Virus record (IMG/VR): IMGVR_UViG_3300025289_000138
Coordinates: 1 to 21,449 of that record
Source of the DNA: a virus
Strand: one strand, 5' to 3'
DNA length: 21,449 bases
The notes under the pieces were generated by a model. The model saw only the letters and a list, made by a program, of their open reading frames with translations, was not told where the DNA came from and did no database searches. The first letter of the stretch is position 1, and each line of letters starts with the position of its first letter. Positions 3,606 through 9,797 of the stretch are shown piece after piece. Position numbers and translations under genes: made by a program.

Positions 3606-4445
3606 TTAACGTGTTGCGATGCAATGCACCGTGAGGTTATCCGTCCAGGCCGCGCCCGTAATATCGAACACACCCAGCGTGACACTCGTTGCGTTCGTCG
3701 CGCTGATATACACCGTCTCAGTGAGCGCGCCCGTGTTGACGATTCCACAGATCACTTCGGTCGGGGTCGTTCCGACACCGTGCGCCAGCAACACATTATT
3801 GCTGACGCTGCCAGTGAAACCGACGAGCGGACCGGTGAACGCGACGCCATCCAACACCAATGAACCGCCCACAGTTATGTTACCGGTGCTGCTGATGGTC
3901 GTGTTCACGTTCAATTCATCATTGATCGTGACCGCGCCTGCACCCGTATTGTTCATCGTTGTCATATCGATGTTGCCAGCGGTGCTGAGGCTATCAAAAT
4001 CGCCATTCGCATCGACATTCATCGCCGCGTTGAAATCCGTTGCACCGTTGAAGGTCGCTGCGCCTGCAATACTTGATGCGCCTCCAACACTCAACGTTCC
4101 AGTTGCTGTGATGTTGCGTCCAGTCAAATCGTTACTACCGACGCTGACACCACCTGTCCAACCGGCCGAGGTGAAGTCACCGACTTTCGACCCACCCGCA
4201 CTGACACCGATGTCATTCGCGCCGACGCGATAAAAGCCCACGTCGGTATCGCCAGTGAAACCCAACGACGGCTCTGATACCGAGCCGTCATCGACATGCA
4301 CTGCACCGAAGTGCGTGACACCGAATGGCTCAACGGTGATCACTTCGCGTCTGTTCAGCAGCGTCACAGACAGAATGAGTGCCACTGCTGCCGCGAGAGT
4401 AACGCCGACAGCTAACCAACCTTTCAGCTCAAAGTTGCTTTTCAT
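3606..4445 (-). CDS. Fibre-like repeat protein with an N-terminal membrane anchor
   Basis: A 279-residue protein starting at ATG 4445, two bases after the capsid stop, with a GGGG ribosome site. Residues 1-8 are polar, about 9-28 are a hydrophobic helix (WLAVGVTLAAAVALILSVTLL) followed by RRE, so it looks like a signal anchor or uncleaved signal peptide. The rest is Gly/Thr/Asn-rich and short-period: GFTGDTDVGFYRVGAND resembles a motif common in phage head and tail fibres ('F-x-G-D-x-D-T-G-x-Y-R'), then many x-G-[SN]-[IL] steps (ITATGTLSVGGASSIAGAAT) that suggest a beta-helix or beta-prism. The C-terminal third (around 215-279) reads as a compact beta domain. A membrane anchor on a fibre-like protein is unusual for a virion component. 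Confidence 0.7.
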   Translation of the reverse strand: MKSNFELKGWLAVGVTLAAAVALILSVTLLNRREVITVEPFGVTHFGAVHVDDGSVSEPSLGFTGDTDVGFYRVGANDIGVSAGGSKVGDFTSAGWTGGVSVGSNDLTGRNITATGTLSVGGASSIAGAATFNGATDFNAAMNVDANGDFDSLSTAGNIDMTTMNNTGAGAVTINDELNVNTTISSTGNITVGGSLVLDGVAFTGPLVGFTGSVSNNVLLAHGVGTTPTEVICGIVNTGALTETVYISATNATSVTLGVFDITGAAWTDNLTVHCIATR

Positions 4446-4447
4446 AG

Positions 4448-6295
4448 CTACCCCGCGACGTTGGACTTGTGCAGCGAGCGCCAATCGGCAACCGGTGCAA
4501 CGCGATAGGTCGATGAGAACTCAAACCCGAATTGCCGCACCTTGTAGCGGATCGCATCGTTGGTCAGCAGCGCACCGGTCTTTTCGTCGGATGCCTCGAA
4601 CAGCTCCGGCGTGCGCTTGCCGCGCAACCAGATCAGCTTGATCGGGCTGACACCACCAGGCTTAGCAACGAGTGCCCAGTCGGTTACATCCGTCCAGACC
4701 GGCACTTCCAGCACTTTGATCTTGCGATAGTAGGGGTTCGGGTCGTTGTCTGCGCTGCCAGGTATTTTCTCAGCGTCGATGATACGTTCGGTTGTCGCAG
4801 TGAGATCGATCGGCACGAGCACATGCGTCGGCATGACATCGAGGCCGAGTCGGCGACCGACACCGAGCGGCTGATCGGTCTGCTTCTTCATGGCGATCAC
4901 GGCAGCATTGATGGCTGCCCAAGACATTGCCGTTGTGAGCAAGTTAGCGTGTCCACCCGCGCTGGTGGCTGCTGTTGCGTTGAACAACGCACCGGTATCC
5001 GAGAGCACTGGGCCGGCCGCGGTGTTCGTTGTGAACACCTGCGCCACACGATCCGCAACGGTGTTGTACCAGCTCTTGCTGAGCCGATCGGGCAACGTGT
5101 TGAGCTTGTTGATCTTGTCGCGCAGGAAAGTTTCGAGGGTGATTTCGATGTAGTTGCCGCGCTTGACGGGTGCAGCCGTCTCTTCCTCGTCTTCCCAATC
5201 AAGCTCGGTGTAAGCATCGCCTTCGGGTACGATCGAGAGAGTCGTTGCACCGAACAGTCGAACGAGAGTCGCGCTGTCATAAGTGTCTACGTCCAATTCC
5301 TCGACAATCTCGTTCCACCACTGCTCCTGCACCGCGTAGTCGGCAGCCAACATGACGTTGACCGCGTTCTTGACTATGCTGGTCAGCGTGCCGGTGTTGA
5401 GGTTGGCTTCGAGTGCACGCGCGCTGAACCGGCCTTCGCCGAAGAAGTCGGCTTGACTGCGATCTCCGCCACCGGTCAAATCCCAATACCACTCGTCCAG
5501 GCCAGAGTAAAGCGGGATCGAACCAATTGAGCCACCGCCTGATTTCCAACCCTCGACCGCGCGCGCTGACAGGCCAAACGATGGATCGGCGATAACTTCT
5601 TGCGCTGCACCGATCACCGGTGCGCCATCCTTCCATTTCATGCCGAACGCGTTGACGAACTTGCGCACGCCATTCGGACCCCACACGCGCCGGACAAAGC
5701 CGAGGACGAATTGATCAGCCTCGTTCATGCCGAGTTTGACGCGCGCACGCGCGCCGCCGTGATCGGTCACACGGCCTGAATCGTCAGCCAGGAATGCCGC
5801 GCGATGCTTCTCGATGGCCGTTTTAATCACGTTGGCCTCGACCGCGCGTCCCTCAAACTGCTCACGGATCAGTTCACGAATCGGCTTTGACAAGCCCGAT
5901 TCGGTCAGCGCCGCTTCGAGTACCTGCCGCGACTGTGCAACACGCGCCGCTTCGAGGATGCGATCGGCAGTAGCATTCGCCTCGGCCAGCTTGCGATCGG
6001 CTTCAGCCAGCTTGCGATCGATGTCGGACAGCGTCGGCTTCGGCTCGACCGGCTTCTGACTGGTTGCTTTGACCACGGCCTCGATCGTGCGCAGCGCATA
6101 CTGCGCCGCCGCGATCTTGGCTTCGGTTGCCTGCTGTTGCGCTTCGGGTGTCACCACTTCGGCAGGCGGCGCGGCACTCAGACCCGCTTTGATCTGCTCC
6201 AGTTGCGCCTTGAGCTGCGCCTTCGCGTCGTCTGGCAACGCGCTGGCCTCCACCGCCGCGATCAGTTGATCGCATTGCTTGATTGCCTCTTCCAT
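4448..6295 (-). CDS. Nested in-frame scaffold - major capsid product
   Basis: An internal ATG at 6295 in the same frame as the protease-capsid fusion is preceded by GGGAGG (6301-6306) with a five-base spacer, better than the site of the full-length start. Translation from here gives 615 residues: an N-terminal helical, Ala/Glu-rich scaffold-like segment (MEEAIKQCDQLIAAVEASAL ..., about residues 1-150) and the Mu gpT-like capsid domain. Lambda uses the same design, with Nu3 scaffold starting inside protease gene C. It would let capsid subunits greatly outnumber the protease. That this start is used is inferred from the ribosome site. Confidence 0.65.
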   Translation of the reverse strand: MEEAIKQCDQLIAAVEASALPDDAKAQLKAQLEQIKAGLSAAPPAEVVTPEAQQQATEAKIAAAQYALRTIEAVVKATSQKPVEPKPTLSDIDRKLAEADRKLAEANATADRILEAARVAQSRQVLEAALTESGLSKPIRELIREQFEGRAVEANVIKTAIEKHRAAFLADDSGRVTDHGGARARVKLGMNEADQFVLGFVRRVWGPNGVRKFVNAFGMKWKDGAPVIGAAQEVIADPSFGLSARAVEGWKSGGGSIGSIPLYSGLDEWYWDLTGGGDRSQADFFGEGRFSARALEANLNTGTLTSIVKNAVNVMLAADYAVQEQWWNEIVEELDVDTYDSATLVRLFGATTLSIVPEGDAYTELDWEDEEETAAPVKRGNYIEITLETFLRDKINKLNTLPDRLSKSWYNTVADRVAQVFTTNTAAGPVLSDTGALFNATAATSAGGHANLLTTAMSWAAINAAVIAMKKQTDQPLGVGRRLGLDVMPTHVLVPIDLTATTERIIDAEKIPGSADNDPNPYYRKIKVLEVPVWTDVTDWALVAKPGGVSPIKLIWLRGKRTPELFEASDEKTGALLTNDAIRYKVRQFGFEFSSTYRVAPVADWRSLHKSNVAG

Positions 6296-7255
6296 GTTTG
6301 CCTCCCGTGCGTGTGGCACGTTTTGAATGGATTCCAGCGCACGCACGAACCGTCCGCCGGCTGCTGGATCGCCGACCGCGTCAACAGAGATGACGCGGGT
6401 GATTTTGTTTACGAGTTCAAAGACAGATTCCCCGATGCGCTTGCGCACGAAATCGCGCAGCACGTCGATGCTCAGCCCGATGGTCTTGAGAACTCCGCCC
6501 TCTTGCGCCCGCACGAGCTTGCGCGCAAAAGCATCATCGACTGTCTTGAACGTCGCGCGCATGCTCTGCGTCGCACGATCCCAACGCACATTCACCAGTG
6601 AGCCGAGCCAATCGCGTCCGGGTGGCCGCATCCCGCCGCGCTGTTGAAACTCTGCATCGGTGAGGTGGTCATCGTAGACTTTTGCGCCCTCGAACATCGG
6701 CACGGCTGATTCGAGTGCGGCAATCGACCAGAGCCGATTGTTCTTCGAGCGGATGTACGGTGTGCCTTCGATGGCCTGTACATCGCCGACCGTCTCGGGG
6801 CCGATGATCACCACTTCCCACGAGCGGCCGGTTTTATCGAGCGGGGATTCAAGATGAATGTCGGAGAGGGTAATACGTCCTGCTTGCGTGAGATTCACAC
6901 TCTCGTGTTCAGCGGGCGTGATACCTGTGATCTTCTTGTGGATCACGGCACATACACGCGCGCGCTGTTCCTCAGTGGGATAGCGATCCTTGTTATCTGG
7001 ATCGTTCATGCACGCAGTGAACAGTCCTGGATCGGCTGTGGCAAATTCCATCCCGCGCAGCTTGGCCTCTAGTGCGAGATCGGCATCAGTGAGTTTCACT
7101 TCATCGCTCATACTTGCCTTCGCGTGTTCGCGCCACATCGAGTGGCAGATCGCGGCTGCCTGGCTACCGTCTTTTGCTGTTCCCTCGTTCAGCACCATCG
7201 GGATGCAGCGGCTAATGTATTCGTCTTGCGTTTCGCCTGAGTGTGGTGTCGGCAT
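4448..7255 (-). CDS. Fused prohead protease - scaffold - major capsid protein (Mu gpT-like)
   Basis: A single 935-residue frame. Residues 1-45 hold a Cys motif (MPTPHSGETQDEYISRC ... AICHSMW) and about 75-110 a second similar Cys motif. About 125-315 look like a prohead protease of the S78/HK97 type: VYDDHLTD (His197), KTIGLSID (Ser262) and VISVDAVGDPA. From Met321 a charged coiled-coil region (DRKLAEADRKLAEANATADR) reads as scaffold. About 500-935 resemble the Mu gpT major head protein. The start chosen is ATG 7255. The frame is open upstream to a TTG at 7339, but that stretch encodes a terminator hairpin. No Shine-Dalgarno sequence precedes 7255. A second start with an excellent site lies at 6295 (separate entry). 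The protein is expected to form the procapsid and to be cut by its own protease domain. Confidence 0.85.
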   Translation of the reverse strand: MPTPHSGETQDEYISRCIPMVLNEGTAKDGSQAAAICHSMWREHAKASMSDEVKLTDADLALEAKLRGMEFATADPGLFTACMNDPDNKDRYPTEEQRARVCAVIHKKITGITPAEHESVNLTQAGRITLSDIHLESPLDKTGRSWEVVIIGPETVGDVQAIEGTPYIRSKNNRLWSIAALESAVPMFEGAKVYDDHLTDAEFQQRGGMRPPGRDWLGSLVNVRWDRATQSMRATFKTVDDAFARKLVRAQEGGVLKTIGLSIDVLRDFVRKRIGESVFELVNKITRVISVDAVGDPAAGGRFVRALESIQNVPHAREANMEEAIKQCDQLIAAVEASALPDDAKAQLKAQLEQIKAGLSAAPPAEVVTPEAQQQATEAKIAAAQYALRTIEAVVKATSQKPVEPKPTLSDIDRKLAEADRKLAEANATADRILEAARVAQSRQVLEAALTESGLSKPIRELIREQFEGRAVEANVIKTAIEKHRAAFLADDSGRVTDHGGARARVKLGMNEADQFVLGFVRRVWGPNGVRKFVNAFGMKWKDGAPVIGAAQEVIADPSFGLSARAVEGWKSGGGSIGSIPLYSGLDEWYWDLTGGGDRSQADFFGEGRFSARALEANLNTGTLTSIVKNAVNVMLAADYAVQEQWWNEIVEELDVDTYDSATLVRLFGATTLSIVPEGDAYTELDWEDEEETAAPVKRGNYIEITLETFLRDKINKLNTLPDRLSKSWYNTVADRVAQVFTTNTAAGPVLSDTGALFNATAATSAGGHANLLTTAMSWAAINAAVIAMKKQTDQPLGVGRRLGLDVMPTHVLVPIDLTATTERIIDAEKIPGSADNDPNPYYRKIKVLEVPVWTDVTDWALVAKPGGVSPIKLIWLRGKRTPELFEASDEKTGALLTNDAIRYKVRQFGFEFSSTYRVAPVADWRSLHKSNVAG

Positions 7256-7259
7256 CAGT

Positions 7260-7294
7260 GAAAACGAAAAGGGCAGCCGACATTCGGCTGCCCT
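7260..7294 (-). terminator. Rho-independent terminator or attenuator before the capsid gene
   Basis: An 11-bp perfect stem (7270-7280 with 7284-7294, core GGGCAGCCGA / TCGGCTGCCC) and a three-base loop are followed on the minus strand by TTTTCGTTTTC. It meets the usual criteria of an intrinsic terminator. It lies downstream of the promoter at 7351-7379 and 15 bases or fewer before the capsid start, so it would stop both upstream read-through and new transcripts unless it is leaky or antiterminated. Confidence 0.75.
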
Positions 7295-7350
7295 AGAGTG
7301 CTCTTGATAGAGTGACCTCGAAGGGTCTTGCTTATTCAATTCGTGCGTTT

Positions 7351-7379
7351 AGAGTACAACAGATTGCCCTAGATGTCAA
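7351..7379 (-). promoter_or_regulatory. Sigma-70-type promoter for the capsid operon
   Basis: On the minus strand TTGACA (7374-7379) and TACTCT (7351-7356) are 17 bases apart. The -35 is perfect. The -10 keeps the most important T, A and final T. The -35 overlaps the TGA of the preceding gene. The spacer end and -10 (AATCTGTTGTACTCT) resemble those of the promoter at 16019-16048. Confidence 0.55.
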
Positions 7380-8655: not shown

Positions 8656-8883
8656 CTATGCCTCATCGATGACAGGCTTCAACCCTGCGCGTTTCCACCA
8701 CGCGGCGAGACGCTGGCGCCAGCCTTCCATGTTCCATTTGCCGGGTCGGTCGCGGTAACCAGGCATGGTCGGAACACCTTGCATCCGTACCATGACCGGC
8801 TGTCCCGCAAAGAAACCGTGATCGACCTGTCCCATTGGCCCGAAGGCCTGACCCATCGATCCAATCGTTCGTCCGCGCGCCAT
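8656..8883 (-). CDS. 75-residue protein sharing a motif with the surface protein at 10233-10952
   Basis: It starts with a TAATG overlap on the repeat-protein gene. The N-terminal half is Gly/Met-rich (MARGRTIGSMGQAFGPMGQV). Residues 35-51 read QGVPTMPGYRDRPGKWN, nearly the same as the C-terminus of the 239-residue protein two genes upstream in transcription. A helix rich in Trp and Arg follows (MEGWRQRLAAWWKRAG). I do not recognise a family. The shared motif suggests both proteins dock on a common partner, possibly as short surface tags. Confidence 0.6.
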   Translation of the reverse strand: MARGRTIGSMGQAFGPMGQVDHGFFAGQPVMVRMQGVPTMPGYRDRPGKWNMEGWRQRLAAWWKRAGLKPVIDEA

Positions 8884-9797
8884 TACACACCCGCCGTCAG
8901 TTCATCGATGGGCTGATTCGCGGCGTCCGTGGTGACTGTCTGACTCATGTGGAGCGTCACGCCATCGGTACGGTAGGTTTCCAGCGTGCCCGCATTGTCA
9001 CGGATACGACTCACGGCTTTGAGGATTGCCGTCGCCAGTGAATGCAATGCTGCTGTGGCTTCGACCTGATCGATGTCCCGCTTCAGGAGCGCGTCGGCGA
9101 TCTCTAGCGCGGCGTCCGCGGCCAGCGCCGCCGCATCGATCGCGTTCGCCGCGAAGGTCGCTGCGTCGATCGCACCATTCGCAATGGCTGCTGCGTCGAT
9201 TGCCCCCGCCGCAAACGTTGCGGCGTCGATGGCTCCGTTGGCGATCGCGGCTGCATCGATGGCTCCGGCGGCGAAGGTTGCCGCGTCGATGGCGGCATTT
9301 GCAATAGCCGCCGCATCGATCGCACCTGCCGCGAACGTGGCTGCATCGATCGCGCCATTCGCAATAGCGGCAGCATCGATAGCACTGGCTGCAAACGCGG
9401 CAGCCGTGATCGCGCCCGCCTGGAATGAGCCAGTCTCGGCGCCTCCAGATGCATCGATGTCCATTCCACGCCCGCTGATATTCGGGAATGCCAGATCGAC
9501 CAACTGTCGGGTTGCGGTATACATCACGTTCACCGCTGTTTTCGCGCCAGCCGTGCCGGTCTTCGTGATCACCGCCACGATGTCCGCATTCATCTCGGTG
9601 GCAGTGAGCGACAGTGTATACATTCCCGATGAAGTCGCGAGTTCACCTGCCTCATTGGTGCAGTCGGTGAATGTCCCGCCGTCCTTGCTCACCTCACTGT
9701 CGAGCGTCGCGGCGGCAGTCACCAGATCGCCATCCGCATCGTAGATCGGGAAGGTGACTATAAATGCAGCATTCTTCTTGGGTGGCCAGTCTGCCAT
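8883..9797 (-). CDS. Virion protein with ten 10-residue Ala-rich repeats
   Basis: A 304-residue protein starting at ATG 9797 with AGGAG eight bases upstream. Residues 1-100 form a beta domain (FIVTFPIYDADGDLVTAAA, LDSEVSKDGGTF, TSSGMYTLSLTATEMNAD) of a type I recall from phage structural proteins. Residues 129-228 are ten repeats of ten residues alternating AIDAAAIANG and AIDAATFAAG. Residues 229-304 are a helix (ALLKRDIDQVEATAALHSLA) and a small beta domain (RDNAGTLETYRTDGVTLHM). The repeats probably form a rod, either a coiled coil or a left-handed beta-type solenoid. A fibre or tail spike-like role is inferred. Confidence 0.75.
   Translation of the reverse strand: MADWPPKKNAAFIVTFPIYDADGDLVTAAATLDSEVSKDGGTFTDCTNEAGELATSSGMYTLSLTATEMNADIVAVITKTGTAGAKTAVNVMYTATRQLVDLAFPNISGRGMDIDASGGAETGSFQAGAITAAAFAASAIDAAAIANGAIDAATFAAGAIDAAAIANAAIDAATFAAGAIDAAAIANGAIDAATFAAGAIDAAAIANGAIDAATFAANAIDAAALAADAALEIADALLKRDIDQVEATAALHSLATAILKAVSRIRDNAGTLETYRTDGVTLHMSQTVTTDAANQPIDELTAGV
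9114..9413 (-). repeat. Ten 30-bp coding repeats
   Basis: Ten consecutive 30-bp units encode AIDAAAIANG or AIDAATFAAG variants (first unit AITAAAFAAS, last AIDAAALAAD). The even 60-bp alternation shows that the unit duplicated was probably two repeats long. Synonymous differences between copies show they are old and kept by selection at protein level. The array could expand or contract by slippage. Confidence 0.9.

Follow-up and report, generated by a model that had tools for sequence, protein, structure and literature searches.

The window analysed here is a 21,449-base stretch of a virus record, carried on a single metagenomic contig. It contains a head module in which genes for the large terminase, the portal and MuF-like head morphogenesis proteins lie upstream of one long gene that joins a maturation protease, a scaffold and the major capsid protein (MCP). 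The features of this gene and of the region ahead of it are:

4448–7255, minus strand: fused gene for an N-terminal module, maturation protease, scaffold and MCP
6881–7255, minus strand: N-terminal helical module, residues 1–125
6338–6838, minus strand: serine-type prohead protease, residues about 140–306
6301–6306, minus strand: Shine-Dalgarno sequence (SD) GGGAGG of the putative internal start
6293–6295, minus strand: putative internal start ATG (Met321), 20 codons past the protease end motif DPAAGG
5426–6295, minus strand: putative scaffold region, residues 321 to about 610
4451–5395, minus strand: MCP with the HK97 fold, residues about 621–935
7351–7379, minus strand: promoter-like element TTGACA-N17-TACTCT
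7260–7294, minus strand: intrinsic terminator-like hairpin and T run, whose end lies immediately ahead of ATG 7255, the long start

The original prediction described a single stop-free frame of 935 residues covering protease, scaffold and capsid, and the minus-strand open reading frame and the domain matches (PF25209 and phrog_15531) agree on this. The frame runs from the ATG at 7255 to a stop at 4448–4450 (935 codons plus the stop; 966 codons from stop to stop). Its strand, which had not been given, is minus; a plus-strand reading of 4448–7255 is ruled out by many stops. Because the window rests on one metagenomic contig, the fusion might have arisen from an assembly or sequencing artefact, such as a missed stop or frameshift. 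However, two contigs from other samples (L002 and L003) match the window protein at 100%, and the full-length relatives, at 72–87% identity, are all open through the protease–capsid junction. The fusion is therefore not an assembly error: no frameshift or stop between protease and capsid, a caveat attached to the original prediction, appears in these sequences, and the relatives already refute an artefact, whose probability we regard as negligible. Directly after the capsid gene, 3606–4445 (minus strand) encodes a protein with an N-terminal hydrophobic helix and weak tail-fibre-like matches, in an unusual place for such a protein. A further minus-strand gene inside the head gene block (8883–9797) contains a repeated AIANGAIDAATFAAGAIDAA-type stretch and has a weak tail fibre match.

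The C-terminal domain matched Phage_capsid_4 (PF25209) over residues 621–912 with 88.4 bits, against a curated gathering cut-off of 27. Foldseek returned HK97 and other HK97-fold capsids (E about 1e-7), and a sequence search of the PDB gave only weak MCP matches. The PHROG head maturation protease family phrog_15531 matched residues 181–388 (E 1.9e-7), while Pfam Peptidase_S78 (PF04586) gave no match to the window protein. The protease sequence carries the S78/U35-like signature of a conserved Ser in a GLSxD motif with an upstream His: Ser262 (6472–6470), within GLSID, is invariant among 48 aligned sequences, and His197 (6667–6665) is invariant within the close family. By analogy with S78/assemblin-type proteases, His197 and Ser262 are the likely catalytic residues.

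An AlphaFold model built on the 48-sequence alignment has a mean pLDDT of 71 and a pTM of 0.41, so its domain packing is unreliable. Along the chain, the model begins with the N-terminal module, which is helical; then come the protease, rich in beta structure (145–306), a low-confidence linker (309–316), long helices to about residue 490 and the capsid domain from about residue 621. The long helices, at 314–490 and following, reach a pLDDT of about 80 over most of residues 320–490. By position and helicity, residues 321 to about 610 are assigned as the putative scaffold, which would form the N-terminal part of a shorter product starting at Met321. At the other end of the protein, the N-terminal module matches phrog_6439 weakly (residues 75–121) and is swapped or absent between relatives, and in the alignment its 125 residues have almost nothing in common with L004, L005, L007 and L009; judged from these alignments, the 5′ end of the fused gene is subject to module swapping. 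The same stretch (7255–6881) contains Cys-containing motifs and differs near-totally from L004, L005, L007, L009 and L010, the rest being more than 80% identical.

The region ahead of the long start is conserved among relatives. A TTGACA box and a TAnnnT box with 17-nt spacing occur in the window and in L004, L005, L007, L009 and L012, although the promoter scan, which required at least four of six matches in each box, did not list the window element. In six of seven close-family members, TTGACA-N17-TAnnnT is followed by a leader and, close before the long ATG, by an intrinsic terminator. The terminator stem shows two-sided changes at 5 of its 10 pairs, with 95% of cells paired; this covarying element may represent attenuation, a gene for a short RNA or the close of an upstream unit, and its effect would be to reduce or time the expression of the fused gene as a whole. 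An Rfam search of the window found nothing. Within this whole upstream region (7260–7379, minus strand), the leader holds ATAAGnAAGnCCCT, which is also seen ahead of the fused gene in L004, L005, L007, L009 and L012.

A second ribosome site, GGGAGG five nucleotides before an ATG at 6295, had been proposed exactly at the protease–scaffold boundary and rated above that of the long start, and both points hold. GGGAGG occupies 6306–6301, 5 nt before the ATG, and the AlphaFold model agrees on the place, with Met321 just after the protease fold and the low-confidence linker, where the helical scaffold begins. The SD duplex energy at Met321 is -10.3 kcal/mol, the best among 58 in-frame start codons, compared with +0.7 at ATG 7255, which lacks an SD. 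Ranking by duplex energy alone is noisy, in that in-frame GTG and TTG sites can score as high, and position-based and synonymous-null tests were therefore used.

In the close family, GCACGGGAGGC is identical, and the longer GCACGGGAGGC(A/G)AA(C/T)ATG is kept, in every fetched contig that extends to this position. The codons before the internal start vary, with insertions and deletions (ESIQNVPH, ESLFQDVPH, ESISQNVSH, ESLQY), and the residues after it vary as well. Codon invariance within the close family says little by itself, given five runs of at least three invariant degenerate codons in the gene. Six of seven members have an SD at the internal start and none at the long start. RNA folding predicts a moderately accessible internal SD, whose accessibility does not exceed that of the long start in all relatives.

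Fused genes extend well beyond this family. A wider-distance search of viral and bacterial contigs yielded 161 frames that carry both protease and MCP. Relatives were found with an alignment of the family of Microcystis phage Mae-JY22; a first contig scan with the close-family alignment found none, nor did a contig scan with the protein of Silvanigrella phage W8red2. For comparison, we used 91 fused genes at less than 70% identity and measured distance from the protease end motif (EPGAGG and similar), past which the linker varies in length and residues. At 12–40 codons past the protease, 84 of the 91 carry an ATG preceded by an SD of 4 nt or more, and counting GTG and TTG, which are the other common start codons, raises this to 90 of 91, the qualifying start being GTG or TTG rather than ATG in six genes. 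The background, ATG plus SD in other 29-codon windows of the same genes, is 13.1%. At ATG codons +14 to +26, an SD of this length is present in 93 of 124 cases vs. 258 of 1092 elsewhere (Fisher p 1.7e-29, a nominal value since the rows are related). This kinship, which leaves p values non-independent, is addressed in part by the low-identity subsets, where NTG plus SD is kept in 19/19 genes at <50% identity and 11/11 at <45%. Weak SDs, GGAG or GGAA, are seen in Mae-JY22 and a small number of other genes.

When codons were resampled synonymously according to the usage of each gene, with the best-start search repeated in each of 1000 trials, 62.6 ± 3.3 genes were expected to have an SD of 4 nt or longer (trial maximum 72), against the 90 observed (z 8.3). 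For an SD of at least 5 nt, 63 genes were observed and 34.6 ± 3.4 expected. The Glu-rich linker thus accounts for part of the signal, the synonymous null expecting such an SD in 69% of genes. Five control windows (-60, +60, +100, +200 and +300 codons) gave no excess (z -2.4 to -0.3). An excess at the boundary and none at the controls indicates that nucleotides are selected there beyond the amino acids of the linker, and at the level of sequence these comparative tests exclude a chance origin of the internal SD–ATG.

Conservation of the SD–ATG and its excess over the synonymous null are best explained by dual initiation, and we hold it highly likely that this one gene directs both a long protease–scaffold–MCP protein and a short scaffold–MCP protein. 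Very probably the inner start lets the phage produce plain shell subunits in large number and protease-tagged ones in smaller number. In the mechanism we infer, initiation at ATG 7255, without an SD, would yield the long polypeptide, probably as the minority species, and initiation at ATG 6295, with its GGGAGG, would yield a protease-free scaffold–MCP that corresponds to HK97 gp5. These two overlapping proteins with a common C-terminus would assemble together by way of the scaffold and MCP domains that they share, and each procapsid would thereby take in protease on a minority of its shell subunits (<1:1). After assembly, the protease would remove the scaffolds and itself, leaving a uniform mature shell. 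This proposal includes initiation at both sites and the ratio between them, as well as co-assembly and the route of cleavage. A rough packing sum assuming T=7, 415 copies and an inner radius of 200 Å has the scaffold and protease of 415 full-length copies filling about 100% of the cavity, and 415 short copies about 48%.

The same frame could be read as a long polyprotein only, with a protease on every subunit; the SD-like motif would then merely reflect the acidic, Glu-rich composition of a linker whose role is self-cleavage or flexibility. The linker is indeed rich in Glu and Asp, its amino acids alone give an SD of 4 nt or longer in 69% of genes under synonymous resampling, and the long frame is stop-free in all relatives. 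Yet a by-product of the linker would not account for the excess over the synonymous null, confined to the boundary, or for the GTG and TTG codons that replace ATG in six genes; the steric load of 415 proteases, by the rough sum above, and a long start without an SD in six of seven close relatives also count against this reading, which we consider quite improbable.

Less remote, though still unlikely in our judgement, is that the internal start is the relic of a once separate scaffold–MCP gene whose upstream stop was lost, the start being in use and the long read-through product derived and perhaps dispensable. According to PMC8508860, HK97 has the same gene order, with the protease first and then scaffold–MCP (gene 4/gene 5), a relative of the window MCP stands alone behind its own SD, and the predicted short product is the same as under dual initiation. 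Against a dispensable long form, the 161 protease–MCP frames come from very divergent genes and are joined without a stop, which argues that selection maintains the long form too, and a search of part of the window identified no protease gene apart from the fused one. Dual initiation remains the reading that we prefer. The stand-alone relative (L256:2893–4083) has an SD-like start, CAAGGgaatcccATG, and both fused and separate states thus occur in this MCP family.

A shell contains several hundred capsid subunits, and tailed phages with a maturation protease need far fewer copies of the enzyme than that, whereas a protease–capsid fusion seems to impose a 1:1 ratio. How this ratio is avoided is not stated in the open-access fusion descriptions consulted, and an internal start is not mentioned in the passages searched of PMC5513430, PMC7302621 and PMC8508860. 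A conserved start that resolves the stoichiometry of such fusions appears to be undescribed in the open-access literature searched. It would answer this puzzle and would supply a simple rule by which the capsid precursor of many phages can be annotated correctly; it also opens protease stoichiometry to testing through one silent change in the SD of a cultured relative.

The three-function fusion itself is already known. Protease, scaffold and capsid share one gene in gp5 of Pseudomonas phage MD8 (PMC8508860), and a "major capsid and protease fusion" is described in actinophages of Arthrobacter, Rhodococcus and Microbacterium (PMC5513430, PMC7302621). NCBIfam has models for such fusions, NF045540 (ClpP-like) and NF045541 (scaf_prot_MCP2). 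The window protein works like the NF045541 fusions, yet lies outside that model, scoring 98.9 bits against a curated cut-off of 525 with the match confined to MCP residues 613–888. MD8 and LESphi2 (NF045540) resemble the window in having one gene for all three functions with a boundary ATG and SD, and LESphi2 also in its PF25209 MCP domain, but their protease has the ClpP fold and the N-terminal 125-residue module is missing. Among these ClpP-type fusions, AAGGAG, CAGGAG or CAGGAA-N9-ATG is present in 17/17 distinct sequences and the ATG is conserved.

The actinophages Arthrobacter Maggie and Gordon, Rhodococcus RRH1 and Microbacterium BurtonThePup and Camille likewise encode protease, scaffold and an HK97-like MCP in one gene, although tblastn with the window protein found none of them. 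Near the boundary, these phages and W8red2 show an ATG preceded by a 4–6 nt SD, which is modest in the actinophages. Each actinophage case says little alone because comparable SD-start matches occur elsewhere in the frame, as they do in Mae-JY22; the boundary starts of the actinophages and of W8red2, whose frame has further SD-like sites too, are weaker evidence but agree in place. Mae-JY22 XAI95674 and its prophage relatives (phrog_29592) share with the window the protease type, the order and the place of the internal ATG, but the phage protein is only about 31% identical, has a weaker SD and is annotated merely as hypothetical. It is conceivable, though we put this forward tentatively, that protease–scaffold–capsid fusions in general rely on nested starts, kept in several separately formed lineages (S78-like, ClpP-like, HK97-type) to set the protease dose per capsid, and that in this phage family the conserved promoter, the terminator and the SD-less long start adjust the dose additionally, ahead of translation.

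In HK97 gp5 the scaffold is the N-terminal domain of the MCP, and the putative short product of the window would be built alike; unlike in the window, the HK97 protease gp4 is encoded by a separate gene, and we know of no nested start in gp5. In herpesvirus UL26/UL26.5, a protease form and a plain form share a C-terminus, with the nested UL26.5 form made from its own transcript and the MCP encoded separately. Two distant relatives (L030:1142–2479 and L031:4560–6032) join a protease to a further C-terminal region in one gene with no MCP in frame, and, much as in lambda C/Nu3, the protease is followed shortly by an ATG. In lambda, the protease–scaffold gene contains an in-frame nested scaffold start, and the MCP (E) is a separate gene. 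The original prediction had likened the locus to C/Nu3 with the capsid protein included, and the comparative evidence strongly supports this. Like C/Nu3, the window has an in-frame internal start with an SD at the protease–scaffold boundary; whereas the nested lambda product is scaffold only, the nested frame of the window continues into and spans an HK97-fold MCP. Since the nested product would include the MCP, the window represents a variant, rather than a member, of the lambda C/Nu3 arrangement.
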